Part shown: in pieces, positions 4,350-17,097 of the stretch
Numbering within the stretch: position 1 is the first letter of the stretch
How the letters are laid out: every line of letters starts with the position of its first letter
Assembly (NCBI GenBank): GCA_033391075.1
Contig: JAWPMV010000001.1
Span: forward strand, 6,758,001 to 6,822,000
From: Bacteroidia bacterium
GTDB taxonomy: Bacteria; Bacteroidota; Bacteroidia; J057
Direction: 5' to 3'
Length of the DNA: 64,000 nucleotides
The notes under the pieces: model-generated
Database searches by the model: none
Told to the model about the DNA's origin: nothing
The model's input: only the letters and a program-made list of their open reading frames with translations
Position numbers and translations under genes: made by a program

Positions 4350-4838
4350 CTACTGCCTCGTACCCACAAAAAACTCAAAATCAGAGACGCCATTTTTCAC
4401 GATTTCCAGGGCAAAAACCAGTTCGCGAATATCCTGATCATATCGGCCATGGGCATCTTGTTGCACACTATTCAGGGAAAAGGGAGTTCCTGAGACGCTT
4501 CCTTCTGCAAATTGCTCACTATTGAAAGTCAACATGACTCCTTCAGAATTGATAAAACCCAAAGGAGTAATCGTTAAACTAGCCGTAAAACTCATACTAT
4601 CGATGGGGCTTTGGTCCGGATAAATCTGTGGAATGAGTCTCACAGAAGTATCGTCTATTTTTTCTACTAAAAATTCCTGGTTATCCACATCATTAGCATC
4701 AGGAGATCCTATTTTGAGGGTAACAGTTCCAGAATATCTTCCTACAATTTGTGTAGTAAGGTCAGAATTTTGTGGATTCTCTTCACATGAAACAATAAAT
4801 AAGAGGGGGAAAAGGAGCAGATAAGTCAGATATCTCAT
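4350..4838 (-). CDS. Putative lipoprotein, last gene of kinase/nucleotidyltransferase operon
   Basis: 162 residues with a lipoprotein signal peptide (MRYLTYLLLFPLLFIVSC; lipobox Ile-Val-Ser-Cys followed by EENP). The mature part looks like a small beta-barrel or lipocalin-like module: QIVGRYSGTVTLKIGSP near the start, then alternating strands ending FALEIVKNGVSDFEFFVGTR. No enzyme motif was seen. It starts 7 bp downstream of the nucleotidyltransferase gene and is probably its co-transcribed neighbour. Function is unknown; an envelope role fits the operon. Confidence 0.7.
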   Translation of the reverse strand: MRYLTYLLLFPLLFIVSCEENPQNSDLTTQIVGRYSGTVTLKIGSPDANDVDNQEFLVEKIDDTSVRLIPQIYPDQSPIDSMSFTASLTITPLGFINSEGVMLTFNSEQFAEGSVSGTPFSLNSVQQDAHGRYDQDIRELVFALEIVKNGVSDFEFFVGTRQ

Positions 4839-4845
4839 GGATTGC

Positions 4846-5577
4846 TTATGAATTTGTTTTCTTTAAATACGCTGTGGCCAATGGGAGGTTTTCGGGTTTT
4901 CCAACATCAAACCAATTTGAGCTATCATGTTGATAGCCGATGATCTTTTTTTGAGCGGCTAAACGAAGGTAGACCTCAATAATGGAAAACTTTCCTTCTT
5001 CAATAATTACGTCTAAAAATTCCGGATTTATCAGATGAATACCACTAAAAGCTAATCTCCGAATTTCTCCCATTGGATTACGAGCTGGACGAACTTCACT
5101 CGTCTTTATATTTTCCCAACCCGTTAGCTGATTCGTTTCATCAAAGTGAAGATACCGGCTGGTATTTCGTTCAGAAACTGCCAGGCTGGCAAGTGCATCT
5201 TGCTCTGTATGAGATTTTATAAAAGCCTGAATATCAAGGTCTGAAATGATATCAGCATTGTGAATTAAGATGGGATCATTTCCTTGAAGGAGATCTTTCG
5301 CAAATTTCAATCCTCCGCCCGTTTCCAACAAAAATTCACGTTCATCAGAAATTCGAATATCAATATCGAAGTTTTCTTTTCTCTCTAAGAAAGCCTCAAT
5401 TTTATCAGCAAAGTGATGGACATTTACTACGACTTCCCTGATCCCATTCTCACGGAGCTTGAGAATGACCCATTCCAATAAGGGTTTTCCAAAAACTTCT
5501 ACCAGGGCTTTGGGGCGGTCATTGGTGAGTGGGCGAAGCCGTGTTCCCAGGCCCGCAGCAAATATCATGGCTTTCAT
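4846..5577 (-). CDS. Sugar-1-phosphate nucleotidyltransferase (MurU-like)
   Basis: 243 residues, NTP_transferase fold. The pyrophosphorylase signature is at the N-terminus: MKAMIFAAGLGTRLRPLTND followed by RPKAL (G-x-G-T-R ... P-K). A metal-binding region reads ILIHNADIISDLDI, and the C-terminus carries WFDVGKPENL. This class joins a nucleotide to a sugar-1-phosphate. The closest described pairing is MurU (MurNAc-1-phosphate uridylyltransferase) with the anomeric kinase AmgK in cell-wall recycling. The gene upstream here, 6 bp away, encodes an AmgK-type kinase, which supports MurU-like function. A mannose- or glucose-1-phosphate enzyme remains possible. Confidence 0.85.
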   Translation of the reverse strand: MKAMIFAAGLGTRLRPLTNDRPKALVEVFGKPLLEWVILKLRENGIREVVVNVHHFADKIEAFLERKENFDIDIRISDEREFLLETGGGLKFAKDLLQGNDPILIHNADIISDLDIQAFIKSHTEQDALASLAVSERNTSRYLHFDETNQLTGWENIKTSEVRPARNPMGEIRRLAFSGIHLINPEFLDVIIEEGKFSIIEVYLRLAAQKKIIGYQHDSSNWFDVGKPENLPLATAYLKKTNS

Positions 5578-5583
5578 AGGAAA

Positions 5584-7035
5584 CTAATTTTGCCAGTTTT
5601 TTCTCTCCTGTTCTATATGAGTCAGATTTATACTCACATCATATTTCTTTTTCAGATGTGCTGCCAATTGATCAGCACAAAAGACCGAACGATGCTGTCC
5701 ACCTGTACACCCAAAGTTTACCATCAAATGATCGAATCCTCTGGATAAATATTTTTCAACTGAAGAATCAACCAAAGTATAGACATGCATCAGAAAAGCA
5801 TCGATCTTACTATTCTTTTTTAAGAAGTCGATGACATCCCGATCTCTTCCGGTTTGTTTCTTATAGGGTTCATAGCGACCGGGATTATGTATCGCCCGAC
5901 AATCAAAAATAAAGCCTCCTCCATTTCCAGATGGATCTGCAGGAATTTCATTTTTATATGAAAAACTATTTATAGTAACTGTTAGCGATTGATTTGCAGG
6001 ATCAGGTTTACCAAATAATTGTAACTCCTCTGATTCTGTAATCGCTATGAGGGCTTTATTTAGTTCCGGAACTTCTATGGGCAATTCTATCTTCTTCAGA
6101 ATAGCCTTTAAATTCTTTATTGCGAAAGGAATACTTTCTAGAAAATGTGGTTTTCTTTCATAAAAACCTCTGAATCCATAAGCTCCCAGTACTTGTATGG
6201 TCCGAATCAATACATAAGCGTAATAGAATTTTCTAAATTCTTCGCGATCAATAGAAACATAACTTTCTACCTCATCCATATAATGCAACAACAATTCTTC
6301 CCGAATTTCTTCTGGAATATTTGCTTTCGCCTGGTATAGCAAAGAAGCCAAATCATATTGAAGTGCTCCTTTCCTCCCTCCCTGATAATCTATAAAATAG
6401 GGCTTACCCTCGTGGAGCATAATATTTCTTGCCTGAAAATCTCGATACAAGAAATAATTAGTATTGGTTTGAAGCAGGTAACGGTAGAATTTTTCAAAGT
6501 CATTTTCCAGCAATTGCTCATCAAAAGGAATTTTGGCCAATCGCAGGAAGTAATACTTAAAATAATTCAGGTCCCATTGAATAGATTGTTCATCAAACCG
6601 GGCTCGCGGATAACAGACTTCATAGTCTAACCCTTTTCCCGCTTCTACCTGGATATGCGCCAGGCAACTCAATGCTTCTTTATAAGTAGGCAGAATATCC
6701 ATGGGGAAATCTCCTCCATTTCTCAATTCATGCAAATGAGCAAATAAAGTAGTATCTCCCAGATCTTCTAATAAATAGATATGCTGAGAAAGATCTTCTG
6801 CATAGATCTTCGGGACGGGAACCCCTTTTTCCAAAAAGTGTCGAGTGAATGTCAGGAAGGCGGTATTTTCTTTCAAATTGGCATTATAAACACCTATCGC
6901 CTGTTGATTATCACTTATGATTCGATAGTATTCTCGATAAGAGCCGGAAGGTTGAAGGGGAATGAAAGATACGGCTTTCTCATTGGCCCATCCTTTAAAC
7001 AGTTCCCTCAGCAATAGTTCTTTTTCCTTGTCCAA
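5584..7035 (-). CDS. Fusion of AmgK-type sugar kinase and RapZ C-terminal domain
   Basis: 483 residues in two parts. Residues about 1-330 are an aminoglycoside-phosphotransferase/AmgK-type kinase: the catalytic loop YRDFQARNIML at 197-207 (Asp199, Asn204) and metal-binding IDYQGG at 215-220 (Asp216). Residues about 350-483 match the C-terminal domain of RapZ: NSFSYKNEIP, FIFDCRAIHNPGRY, TGRDRDV and the diagnostic FGCTGGQHRSV at 441-451. The RapZ N-terminal P-loop domain is absent. In enterobacteria the RapZ C domain binds glucosamine-6-phosphate and controls GlmS synthesis. AmgK phosphorylates MurNAc/GlcNAc at the anomeric carbon. A kinase regulated by, or coupled to, amino-sugar sensing is inferred. 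Confidence 0.85.
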   Translation of the reverse strand: MDKEKELLLRELFKGWANEKAVSFIPLQPSGSYREYYRIISDNQQAIGVYNANLKENTAFLTFTRHFLEKGVPVPKIYAEDLSQHIYLLEDLGDTTLFAHLHELRNGGDFPMDILPTYKEALSCLAHIQVEAGKGLDYEVCYPRARFDEQSIQWDLNYFKYYFLRLAKIPFDEQLLENDFEKFYRYLLQTNTNYFLYRDFQARNIMLHEGKPYFIDYQGGRKGALQYDLASLLYQAKANIPEEIREELLLHYMDEVESYVSIDREEFRKFYYAYVLIRTIQVLGAYGFRGFYERKPHFLESIPFAIKNLKAILKKIELPIEVPELNKALIAITESEELQLFGKPDPANQSLTVTINSFSYKNEIPADPSGNGGGFIFDCRAIHNPGRYEPYKKQTGRDRDVIDFLKKNSKIDAFLMHVYTLVDSSVEKYLSRGFDHLMVNFGCTGGQHRSVFCADQLAAHLKKKYDVSINLTHIEQERKNWQN

Positions 7036-13278: not shown

Positions 13279-13677
13279 AATCTTTCTGATACAGGCTTTC
13301 TTTTCCTCAATAAGAAAACAATACGCCTTTATCGGCTACTTGGCTTGATTTCCTAGCCCCAGTTCAAAAAAAAATCTGAATTACAAATGCACTCCCTTAT
13401 TCCTCGCGAATAAGGGAGTGTTGGCTTGAGACGGTGGGTTTTCTATACATTCCCAAAGATTTTTCCCTTGATTTCGTCGATCAGGACAAAAATAATGGAA
13501 GAGCCGTTTGCTAAAATGCTGACAAGTTCTGAAATTTATATACTACGGATTTCACACAATACTATTTTTAAGGCCAACTTGACTCTTTCTCTCTCGTAAG
13601 GGAATAGTAGCTAGCCTTATATTTTTTGTGTTTAATTTCTTTTGAAATTATCATTGTCCGTTTTAGAGCAACCTACA
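13279..13677. other. Intergenic region with a perfect hairpin
   Basis: It contains a 13-bp perfect hairpin at 13390-13420 (CACTCCCTTATTC, loop CTCGC, GAATAAGGGAGTG), preceded by a run of eight or more A residues. No T-run follows on the plus strand, so it is not a classic terminator, although it could still end the thiL-xth transcript. Nothing else was recognised before the DUF4175 gene. Confidence 0.6.
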
Positions 13678-16600
13678 ATGCTTATGCCCCAGGAAAAAAA
13701 TCTTCTCGACCAGCGCTTGCAGGAATTTCGTTCGCAGTATTACAAAGACAGGATCCTGCGCGGTTCCTTACTACTCGCCTTATTGGTCAGCTCCATGCTG
13801 TTTGTGGCATTATTGAGTGAAGGACTCTTTGGCTTCTCCTCCAGTATCAGAACTACAATTGTTTATGGACTTGGAGGAATTTTTCTTTTGGTCCTGGGAT
13901 GGATGGTCATTTGGCCTTTGACCAAATTATTCAAACTCACCCATACCATTTCCGATTTTCAGATCGCGGATATGGTGAGTCAACATTTCCCAAATATCAA
14001 TGATAAACTGACCAACCTCCTGCAGCTGAAAAATAGTAATCGGGAAGACAATGCGCTGGTGCAGGCGGCCATCAATAAAAAAACAGAAACTATTACGCCG
14101 GTTCCTCTTAAGTCTGCAATTGACTTAAAAAAGAATCGAAAATATGTTGGCTACCTTGGAGTGCCGATGCTTTTGTTCCTATTGACCTTCGTTTTCAATA
14201 GTTCTTTCCTGGGGGAAAGTAGTAAGCGGATGCTCAATTATGACAAAGAATTTTTACCTCCTCCTCCTTTTAATCTTCAACTCAGTGATATCCCGACTTC
14301 TTTGGTTGCAGGTCAGGACTATACTTTCGAAGTAAAAGTTGATGGAGACAGATTGCCTGCTGAATTATTTGTGTTCATTCGAAATGATGCTGAAGAAAAT
14401 TCCGAATTCATCGATTTCAACCTGACGGCAGAAAATGCCGAGACTTTTACTTATACCCTGAGCAATGTAAAAGAAGATTTCTCTTTCAGAATCGGGAATG
14501 AGGCTGTGAGTTCTGAAATCTATCCGGTAGAAGTTTTGAAGAGACCTTCTATCAAAAATTTCAGAGCCATTGTTCAATATCCAGCCTATACAGGTTTGGG
14601 AGTAGAAAAATTGGCAGATAATGTGGGCGACTTCAAAGTGATCAAAGGATCCAGAGTAACCTGGGAACTTTTGCCTCAGGGAGACTTGGCTGAAGCCTGG
14701 TTTGTAGGAAAAGATAAGATTGCTTTCGAAGAAAAAGATAATGAGACATATAAAGTGAGTCAGCGGATGATGAAAGACCTCGAGTATTTCATTTCGCTAA
14801 ATTCAGTAGAAAATATTGCTAACATAGATACCGTTCGCTACAAAGTGAACATTCTGAATGATCGCTATCCTTCTATCTATGTTTTCAAGCCCAATAATGA
14901 TTTCAAAGTTGACCTTGATCCGGTCATGCCTTTGGATCTCGAGATCGCAGACGATTTTGGTTTCAGTAAAATGAAACTCTTCTATCGTTTTGTAAAATCT
15001 GGAGGAACCAGTGAAGTAAGTGCAGAATTCAAAGAATACAATTTGGATATCGATGCCACTACTTTGCTACAGCCTTTGGGCTATCAAATCGATCTGACGA
15101 GTCTGGGTCTGGCCGAAGGGGACGAACTTGAATATTATATTGAAGTTTGGGACAATGATGGAATTTCCGGTGCCAAATCTACGACCAGTGCTACTTATAA
15201 AGTTCTTTATCCAACCCTGGATGCTCGTTATGACGAAGTCAATGAAAGTCAGAACGAAGTCAAGGACGATTTGAAAAATTTGAAGGAAAAAGCAGATGAG
15301 TTGAACCAGGCATACAAAAAAATGCAGGAAAAACTCCTTGAGCAGAAGAAATTATCCTTCGATGATAAAAAAGAAGCACAGAGAATGTTGGAAGAGCATC
15401 AGAAAATGCTCGAAGAACTGAAGGAGACTCAGCAAAAATTTGAAGAGACCATCGATAAAATGGAAGAAAATCAGATGGTGTCCGAAGAAACCCTCGAAAA
15501 ATATGAGGAGTTGAATGAATTTTTGGAAGAGATGGATAATCCAGAGATTGAAGATTTGTTAAAACAGATCGAAGAGCAGATGGAAAACCTCAATCCAGAG
15601 GATATTCGCGAGAAACTAGAGCAGCTTCAGTCGAATGAAGAAGATATCAAGAAGTCTTTGGAGCGCACATTAGAGCTTCTAAAGCAATTGGAGGTACAGG
15701 AGAAGGCAGATGAGATTAGAAACAAATTGGATCAGTTAGAAGCCAAACAAGAGCTCTTAAATGAGAAGTTGGAACAGTCTGACGAAGCAGATGAAATGGA
15801 GAATTTGGCTGAGCGTCAGGAAGATTTAGAGGAGCAAATGGATGGCATCAAGGAAGACATGAAGGAGCTGGAAGATCTCAAAGAAAATACTGAGACTCCG
15901 GATGAAGAGAAAATGGATGAGCTTAACAAGGATGCCGAAGAAGCTCAGGATGAAATGGAGAAAGCGGCAGAGCAAATGAAGGAATCTGCGGAACAGCAAA
16001 AAGACGGTTCCAAAAAAATGAAGAAGCAGTCTCAGCAGATGAAGCAAAATGCTTCTGAATCTCAGAAGAAGGCCAAGCAAAAAATGCAGAAAATGCAGGA
16101 GCAGCTTTCGGAGATGCAGATGAATATGCAGATGCAACAGGATCAGCAGAACCTTGAGAATCTTCGTGAACTATTGGAAAATTTATTGAAACTGTCTTTC
16201 GACCAGGAGGACTTGAGAGATGATGTAAGGGAGTTGAAATACGGAGACCCTTCTCTAAAAGATAAGAGTCAGAACCAAAAGAAATTGCAGGATGATATGG
16301 GATTGGTAAAAGACAGTCTTGAGTCTTTGGCCAATAAGATGTTCCAGATTCAGAAGTTTGTATTGGATGAAAGCAAAAGTATTGAGGACAACATGAAGCG
16401 TTCTCAAACCTTCTTCCGAAACAAGCAGATCCCTATGGTTAACTACCATCAGCAGTCTGCCATGACCAGCATCAATAACCTGGCGAATATGCTATCCGAT
16501 GTCATGAAGCAATTGCAGGAGCAAATGAAAAATGCGCAAATGGGTCAGGGCATGTGTCCGAAACCTGGAGACAAACCCGGCATGCAGCAAATGGGTCAGG

Positions 16601-17097
16601 AGCAAAGAAAGTTGAATCAGCAGATGCAGCAGATGAAACAAAATGGTGGAGAGATGGATGGTGAGAAGCTGAAAGAAATGGCTGCAAGACAGGAGGCAAT
16701 TCGTAAGAAACTAAAGGATGCCCATGACCGTATGAAGAGGGGAGAAGATGGAAAACCGCTGGGAGATATGCAGAAGATCATGCAAGACATGATTCAATCT
16801 GAAACAGAACTACTCAACAAACAGTTAACTAATCAGATGCTGAAGAGACAGCAGGATATCCTGAGTCGTCTGCTTCAGGCTGAGCAGTCTGTGAGAGAGC
16901 GGGAGTTGGATGATAAGAGAGAGTCGAAAACGGCTCAGATCAAAGACAGGAAAAGCCCGGAGGAACTATCTCTGGAAGAGTATAAGAACAAGATCAGACA
17001 GGAATTATTGAAGTCCAATAAATTGGAATATTCTAACGATTTCCTCATTTTGATCGAACAATATTATAAAAAGCTTGAAGGAGCGAATGAGCAGTAG
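13678..17097 (+). CDS. DUF4175-type membrane protein with long coiled coil
   Basis: About 1139 residues from the ATG at 13678; a TTG 36 bp upstream is a less likely start. Two membrane helices near the N-terminus (about 30-55 and 60-85: LLLALLVSSMLFVALLSEGL and YGLGGIFLLVLGWMVIWPL) and a third near 160-180. Residues about 200-520 look like beta-rich extracytoplasmic repeats. From about 520 to 1090 the protein is a Glu/Lys/Gln/Met-rich coiled coil (for example MQKMQEQLSEMQMNMQMQQ). This layout fits the DUF4175 family of Bacteroidota and Proteobacteria, whose role is not established. The stop overlaps the start of the next gene. Confidence 0.8.
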   Translation: MLMPQEKNLLDQRLQEFRSQYYKDRILRGSLLLALLVSSMLFVALLSEGLFGFSSSIRTTIVYGLGGIFLLVLGWMVIWPLTKLFKLTHTISDFQIADMVSQHFPNINDKLTNLLQLKNSNREDNALVQAAINKKTETITPVPLKSAIDLKKNRKYVGYLGVPMLLFLLTFVFNSSFLGESSKRMLNYDKEFLPPPPFNLQLSDIPTSLVAGQDYTFEVKVDGDRLPAELFVFIRNDAEENSEFIDFNLTAENAETFTYTLSNVKEDFSFRIGNEAVSSEIYPVEVLKRPSIKNFRAIVQYPAYTGLGVEKLADNVGDFKVIKGSRVTWELLPQGDLAEAWFVGKDKIAFEEKDNETYKVSQRMMKDLEYFISLNSVENIANIDTVRYKVNILNDRYPSIYVFKPNNDFKVDLDPVMPLDLEIADDFGFSKMKLFYRFVKSGGTSEVSAEFKEYNLDIDATTLLQPLGYQIDLTSLGLAEGDELEYYIEVWDNDGISGAKSTTSATYKVLYPTLDARYDEVNESQNEVKDDLKNLKEKADELNQAYKKMQEKLLEQKKLSFDDKKEAQRMLEEHQKMLEELKETQQKFEETIDKMEENQMVSEETLEKYEELNEFLEEMDNPEIEDLLKQIEEQMENLNPEDIREKLEQLQSNEEDIKKSLERTLELLKQLEVQEKADEIRNKLDQLEAKQELLNEKLEQSDEADEMENLAERQEDLEEQMDGIKEDMKELEDLKENTETPDEEKMDELNKDAEEAQDEMEKAAEQMKESAEQQKDGSKKMKKQSQQMKQNASESQKKAKQKMQKMQEQLSEMQMNMQMQQDQQNLENLRELLENLLKLSFDQEDLRDDVRELKYGDPSLKDKSQNQKKLQDDMGLVKDSLESLANKMFQIQKFVLDESKSIEDNMKRSQTFFRNKQIPMVNYHQQSAMTSINNLANMLSDVMKQLQEQMKNAQMGQGMCPKPGDKPGMQQMGQEQRKLNQQMQQMKQNGGEMDGEKLKEMAARQEAIRKKLKDAHDRMKRGEDGKPLGDMQKIMQDMIQSETELLNKQLTNQMLKRQQDILSRLLQAEQSVRERELDDKRESKTAQIKDRKSPEELSLEEYKNKIRQELLKSNKLEYSNDFLILIEQYYKKLEGANEQ

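Follow-up and report, generated by a model that had tools for sequence, protein, structure and literature searches.

We found that one gene in the window (the whole stretch of DNA that was analysed, 64,000 nucleotides long) encodes an AmgK-like sugar kinase fused to the C-terminal domain of RapZ (RapZ-C), that a gene for a MurU-like enzyme follows it closely, and that this kinase / RapZ-C layout is widespread and not peculiar to this genome. With a little less than even confidence, we propose that the fusion is a bifunctional amino-sugar salvage enzyme, a phosphatase and a kinase in one chain, partnering its MurU-like neighbour. The features concerned are as follows.

5584..7035, minus strand: gene for the fusion of an AmgK-like kinase with RapZ-C, a 483-aa open frame with a TTG start (mechanical call)
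6016..7035, minus strand: kinase part with APH fold (approximately residues 1-340), closest solved relative 3csv
6424..6447, minus strand: YRDFQARN, kinase catalytic loop, residues 197-204, D199 and N204 invariant in 37/37 and 63/63 aligned fusions
6376..6393, minus strand: IDYQGG, metal-binding motif, residues 215-220, D216 invariant in 37/37 and 63/63 aligned fusions
5620..5985, minus strand: RapZ C-terminal domain, residues 351-472, by Pfam PF22740 (111 bits) and structure match to 5o5s
5914..5928, minus strand: GNGGG loop, residues 370-374, within a stretch of 5 residues that E. coli RapZ lacks in the pairwise alignment
5686..5709, minus strand: CTGGQHRS, residues 443-450, CX5R(S/T) anion-binding loop, equivalent to C247-S254 of E. 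coli RapZ
4846..5577, minus strand: MurU-like sugar-1-phosphate nucleotidyltransferase, 243 aa, beginning 6 bp downstream of the fusion

The preliminary description of this DNA had reported two kinase motifs and the RapZ-C hallmark in one 483-residue frame, naming no strand. All three lie in a single frame at 5584-7035 of the minus strand, with FGCTGGQHRSV at residues 441-451 of the 483-aa fusion, and the plus-strand reading of the same interval is interrupted by many stops. In the Pfam scan APH (residues 58-252; 37.3 bits, cut-off 23.2) and RapZ_C (PF22740, residues 351-472; 111 bits, cut-off 27) were the sole domains above cut-off. The RapZ P-loop domain, which had been described as missing, is indeed absent: the scan found no RapZ_N in the protein, and the genome has no match to PF03668 (RapZ_N, P-loop NTPase). 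The NCBIfam model for RapZ, NF003828, scored 98.6 bits against a cut-off of 244 and aligned over model positions 156-274 alone. For the kinase half, the AmgK models were the top NCBIfam families, at 68.9 bits of 550 (NF045759) and 61.5 of 500 (NF045698), scores far under the equivalog cut-offs. The APH catalytic residues (HRD-like Asp, Asn and metal Asp) are present there as D199, N204 and D216. A comparison with the PDB led to 3csv for the kinase half and to RapZ for the C-terminal part, and the AlphaFold2 model of the fusion reached a pLDDT of 93.9 and a pTM of 0.73. Judging from its family, the AmgK-like domain would phosphorylate MurNAc at C1.

These same observations bear on whether the fusion could be an RNA-linked regulator in the style of enterobacterial RapZ, with which it has the RapZ-C fold in common and in which, according to a passage of PMC9841335, RNA phosphates occupy the same pocket in E. 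coli. We regard this as very improbable, given that the RapZ_N domain is absent, that the tail of the window protein, LTHIEQERKNWQN, is without the basic cluster of the E. coli RapZ tail (consensus in a passage of PMC7525490), and that an Rfam scan of the window found no riboswitch or sRNA family at gathering score.

The nucleotidyltransferase that had been placed 6 bp further on is the 243-aa frame at 4846-5577 of the minus strand. MurU is its best NCBIfam family, at 149 bits, short of the curated cut-off of 250 (NF045761), and its best PDB relatives are 4y7t and 8hhd, the latter named a MurNAc-1P uridylyltransferase; it also resembles HddC and mannose-1-P guanylyltransferases (NCBIfam). The amino-sugar salvage suggested earlier therefore stands as a family resemblance to AmgK and MurU, and not at the level of the curated equivalog cut-offs. 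Since the kinase and MurU scores are far below those cut-offs, a different sugar is conceivable. The same architecture could activate a hexosamine or similar sugar for surface glycans or LPS, with RapZ-C handling the 6-phosphate of that sugar, in line with the failure of every protein scanned to reach the AmgK or MurU equivalog cut-off and with the resemblance to HddC and the guanylyltransferases. We consider this unlikely: in the proteins scanned, NCBIfam ranks AmgK first for the kinase part and MurU first for the transferase, and 8hhd, which together with 4y7t heads the PDB matches of the transferase, is a MurNAc-1P uridylyltransferase. Right after the MurU-like gene lies a lipoprotein-like frame of 162 aa (4350-4838, minus strand), which had no match in Pfam or NCBIfam and is not a conserved neighbour in the compared loci. 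Elsewhere in the window, a 1151-aa protein (13642-17097, plus strand) carries a very long coiled-coil-like region rich in Glu, Gln, Lys and Met.

These architectures were looked for in 395 genomes of the phylum of the window (Bacteroidota, a group that here includes Ignavibacteria). The RapZ-C domain was detected in 49 genomes, in 37 as the fusion to the kinase (this genome included) and in 12 as a stand-alone protein of 133-165 aa; none of the 49 frames has the size of an ordinary RapZ. The presence of the same two-domain frame in 37/395 genomes argues that the fusion is not due to chance. Downstream of RapZ-C, 39 of the 49 loci (30/37 fusions and 9/12 stand-alones) have a MurU-like gene in the same orientation, at a distance of at most 175 bp in 38 of these and of 435 bp in one. 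Of the 12 stand-alone RapZ-C genes, 8 are preceded by a homologue of the kinase half of the fusion, and all 8 are followed by a MurU-like gene, so that the order kinase - RapZ-C - MurU persists even where the two domains are separate. The co-inheritance of the two domains, raised in the preliminary description, is thus found in 37 genomes as a fusion and in 8 as a split operon of the same order. In the other 10 genomes the fetched locus contains no MurU gene and a MurU-type match lies at another site; this is weak evidence, since such matches occur in 272/395 genomes and 12/14 controls, none at cut-off. Stand-alone RapZ-C away from both kinase and MurU was found at three loci (L066, L067 and L070). 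In all three orphan RapZ-C genomes tested, an AmgK-like kinase is encoded at another site (62.9, 51.6 and 27.9 bits, one of them weak, E 1.3e-6), according to a model that also matches in 2/14 controls. Past MurU there are no neighbours conserved across families, and some inside single families.

In trees of the two domains, in which several branches are long or weak, the split state requires two changes. Split kinases fall among fused ones in the kinase tree, and 11 of the 12 stand-alone domains do so in the RapZ-C tree, with that of L049 basal beside the long E. coli branch. Within a single genus (g71), the two domains are fused in locus L048 (6305-7765) and occupy separate adjacent frames in L049 (6182-7603), which reflects either a recent change or an assembly frameshift.

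The layout also occurs in other phyla. Searching named genomes confirmed at least 591 relatives. The best 80 loci, nearly all from metagenome-assembled genomes, comprise by record title 49 of Bacteroidota type, 3 from Ignavibacteria (one of them Melioribacter, which we take to belong to that class), 2 labelled only as 'bacterium', and 26 from Acidobacteria, Elusimicrobia, Calditrichia, Gemmatimonadota, Neomarinimicrobiota or Deferribacteres. A MurU-like gene follows within 200 bp in 46 of these best 80 loci; among the 75 loci whose downstream sequence exceeds 600 bp, it does so in 44. In one acidobacterial class RapZ-C is present in 113/116 genomes, with an ordinary RapZ-type copy in 112, a fusion-type copy in 33 and both in 32; these types were called from score and frame length, with the architecture unread, and three of the 33 fusion-type copies are short frames (G493, 336 aa; G498, 149 aa; G481, 79 aa). 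The coexistence of RapZ-type and fusion-type copies in this class indicates that the fusion is a separate domain lineage and not a disguised RapZ.

We then considered what the RapZ-C domain could bind. For comparison we used a 73-row alignment of the window protein with 72 of the 80 named loci, leaving out 7 interrupted by internal stops and 1 that lacks a stop codon, and a 63-row alignment (the window and 62 others) that further omits 10 overlong or short frames. Structure prediction of the pocket domain (AlphaFold2, 73 sequences, pLDDT 94.5) gave a model that matches the crystal structure of the C-terminal domain of E. coli RapZ, 5o5s, with a Z of 19.6 (1.4 A over 122 residues, 30% identity). 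The ligand pocket of E. coli RapZ is formed by H190, T248, G249, H252 and R253, as given in a passage of PMC5737377, with C247 near it according to part of PMC9841335. Five of these six residues, C247, T248, G249, H252 and R253, are kept as C443-T444-G445-G446-x-H448-R449. In alignments with E. coli RapZ, the position of H190 is a glycine inside an NPG[RK] motif, and a five-residue insertion of consensus GNGGG lies just upstream of the conserved FDCR...NPG stretch, in which G372-G374 reach at least 90% conservation in each of the four alignments. The earlier expectation of a conserved GlcN6P pocket thus holds for the phosphate-binding residues and fails for the full pocket. Given the loss of H190 and the added glycine-rich loop, a ligand other than GlcN6P is conceivable, and the modified pocket might accommodate a bulkier one such as MurNAc-6P.

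The kept residues include C443-X5-R449-S450, a phosphate loop of the type found in protein tyrosine phosphatases (PTP), with the Cys present in 73/73 rows and the Arg in 72/73 (the window and its 72 named relatives). In the models it sits in a strand-loop-helix arrangement, where the strand ends at C443 and the helix begins at R449, and the pattern CxxGxxR[S/T] is absent from 599 neighbouring frames called mechanically, which amount to 195,529 residues. In the 63-row alignment D378, H448 and H473 are invariant and are candidates for a general acid, none of them singled out. The overall fold of RapZ-C appears phosphofructokinase-like rather than PTP-like (phosphofructokinases, Z 5.3-6.8). The comparison gave no convincing match to the PTP fold: matches other than RapZ were weak, with DUSP26 at rank 50 (E 0.99). 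The CX5R resemblance is therefore treated as local.

Khan and Görke described the RapZ pocket as homologous to the PTP phosphatase loop and suggested hydrolysis (PMC7199280). Passages of PMC9841335 state that the E. coli loop binds sulphate or malonate, that C247A and C247S abolish RapZ function, and that the density seen with GlcN6P looked 'chemically transformed'; the same source reports that variants of C247 and of the pocket also failed in a GlmZ pull-down, which its authors read as a loss of RNA binding. For YvcJ, the RapZ of Bacillus, NTPase and phosphatase activities have been reported in a passage that names no domain (PMC7525490). HpaP, a RapZ homologue going by the context in which it is cited, was not used as evidence.

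The main rival of the phosphatase-kinase reading, and rated below it, is an allosteric sensor, in which RapZ-C would bind an amino-sugar phosphate (GlcN6P or a different one), leave it unconverted and switch the fused kinase, such that salvage follows the precursor pool. The E. coli protein binds GlcN6P with a KD of 186 nM, with no response to GlcN or Glc6P (excerpt of PMC7073468), and this binding runs via the C-terminal domain (excerpt of PMC9841335); five of the six pocket residues are conserved, and a regulatory domain fused to the enzyme that it controls is a common plan. On the other hand, the loss of H190 and the glycine-rich insertion leave GlcN6P not assured as the ligand, and the three stand-alone domains away from kinase and MurU would require a separate contact. 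We see the sensor as less likely than not. The distribution of the domain, to which we now turn, is also part of this comparison.

AnmK converts recycled anhydro-MurNAc to MurNAc-6P, and MurQ is the usual catabolic outlet of this product. In an anabolic route a phosphatase, MupP in Pseudomonas, is needed before AmgK and MurU can act, as set out in a passage of PMC5371407. Across the phylum, RapZ-C is present in 15/16 genomes with AnmK and without MurQ, in 17/256 with both, in 13/100 with neither and in 4/23 with MurQ alone. The fusion type of the acidobacterial class is found in 9/13, 16/86, 0/3 and 8/14 genomes of the same four categories, the last eight being G430, G447, G455, G462, G476, G483, G489 and G501. 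The difference between AnmK-positive genomes without and with MurQ gave Fisher p values of 5e-15 in the phylum and 4e-4 in the acidobacterial class, uncorrected for kinship: the 16 genomes represent 7 families, with the domain in 6, and 8 of the 16 belong to one family. Without the three short frames, the acidobacterial figures become 7/13 and 15/86 (hand arithmetic). This enrichment is not predicted by a pure sensor alone, and a distribution that tracks AnmK and MurQ also speaks against another sugar.

For these counts MurQ was scored as absent in the phylum at E > 1e-40 (weakest present 1.2e-48, strongest absent 5.5e-12; 279 genomes scored present, 271 of them above the curated cut-off) and in Acidobacteria when there was no match at 1e-30. 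A partial AnmK match in G216 (1.2e-10) was scored as present, and one in G502 (6.5e-4, under cut-off) as absent.

The association is far from exclusive. Of the phylum's 49 genomes with RapZ-C, 17 gave no match to AnmK, a figure that counts in favour of another sugar, and the same is true of 8 of the 33 acidobacterial genomes with the fusion type. MurQ is also present in 21 of the 49, this genome included, which has matches to both AnmK and MurQ. Among 34 genomes taken from those of the best 80 named fusion loci, AnmK is present in 26, 24 of these with MurQ too, so that the module does not simply stand in for MurQ; the 34 overlap with the 395 (L097 lies in G216 and L103 in G156). A strict requirement for AnmK to supply MurNAc-6P was rejected on the strength of the 17 genomes lacking it. 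Searching the flanks of the 80 named and 49 phylum loci (about 6-7 kb per side or to the contig end) with four query proteins, with no positive control, revealed neither AnmK nor MurQ near the module. In two genomes of one genus, an orphan stand-alone RapZ-C gene is separated from the AnmK gene by roughly 10 and 16 kb (G306:C11 and G271:C2).

A different arrangement is seen where the kinase and transferase have another partner. NamZ is an exo-muramidase and should yield unphosphorylated MurNAc. The order AmgK-like - MurU-like - NamZ was found at L080 (44-3185) and also at L083, L084 and L085, all of genus g60 in family f19 of the phylum, a family with no member among the 49 RapZ-C genomes; these four scored highest among the loci outside the module and are not a random draw. 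As in the fusion loci, an AmgK-like kinase adjoins a MurU-like protein, unlike them with the NamZ muramidase in place of RapZ-C. Such a locus looks like salvage of free MurNAc, and since NamZ should give free MurNAc, no phosphatase would be needed.

Taking these observations together, we hypothesise the following sequence for the phosphatase-kinase reading. AnmK, encoded elsewhere in the same genome, would supply MurNAc-6-phosphate from anhydro-MurNAc. RapZ-C would bind the 6-phosphate in its CX5R loop and cleave it via the invariant Cys, the step that the unrelated HAD enzyme MupP carries out in Pseudomonas. The AmgK-like domain of the same chain could then phosphorylate the freed sugar at C1, and the MurU-like enzyme, as its family suggests, could form a UDP-sugar, presumably UDP-MurNAc. 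Hydrolysis of a 6-phosphate by RapZ-C, MurNAc as the sugar and UDP-MurNAc as the product are all points that we infer. The CX5R loop, with the distribution of AnmK and MurQ, makes a catalytic role fit somewhat better than the sensor setting recycling flux that had been suggested before. The occurrence of the fusion in 37/395 genomes with the split operon of the same order in 8 more is in keeping with catalysis, as is the absence of RapZ-C at 4/4 loci, of one genus, where AmgK-MurU adjoins NamZ. Against it stand the genomes without AnmK, those with MurQ, a general acid for which there are only candidates, a fold that does not look like that of a PTP, and E. coli RapZ itself, a GlcN6P sensor in which the defect of C247 variants was read as one of RNA binding.

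More tentatively, RapZ-C may originally have been a Cys-X5-Arg amino-sugar-6-phosphate phosphatase partnering kinase-type domains, and the RNA-sensing of E. coli RapZ a late re-use of an enzyme pocket. If the phosphatase-kinase reading is right, it would supply a missing peptidoglycan-recycling enzyme in several phyla, would explain the persistence of AnmK where MurQ is gone, and would make the question of catalysis in the pocket, raised by Khan and Görke and by Islam et al., testable on a protein free of RNA complications. Even if the domain is a sensor only, the conserved order kinase - RapZ-C - MurU ties RapZ-C to amino-sugar metabolism far beyond RNA regulation. We found no account joining RapZ and AmgK in the open-licence literature, and one may exist elsewhere.

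Three known systems are closest to the module described here. With RapZ (E. coli YhbJ; Bacillus YvcJ) the fusion has in common the C-terminal domain and the CX5R loop; unlike RapZ, it carries an APH sugar-kinase domain in place of the P-loop NTPase half, has no RNA-binding tail, has a Gly at the position of H190 and a glycine-rich insertion, and is paired with MurU. The AmgK-MurU salvage of MurNAc in Pseudomonas and Caulobacter, as described in passages of PMC5371407 and PMC13046382, uses the same kinase and uridylyltransferase families, which are adjacent here; it differs in that an extra RapZ-C domain or gene stands here between kinase and MurU and in that the scores are far below the equivalog cut-offs. 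MupP of Pseudomonas takes MurNAc-6P to MurNAc between AnmK and AmgK (passage of PMC5371407), the very step proposed for RapZ-C. Whereas MupP is a HAD enzyme, RapZ-C would be a putative phosphatase with a Cys-X5-Arg loop on an unrelated fold, and with no HAD domain above cut-off in the fusion, it at most works like MupP.
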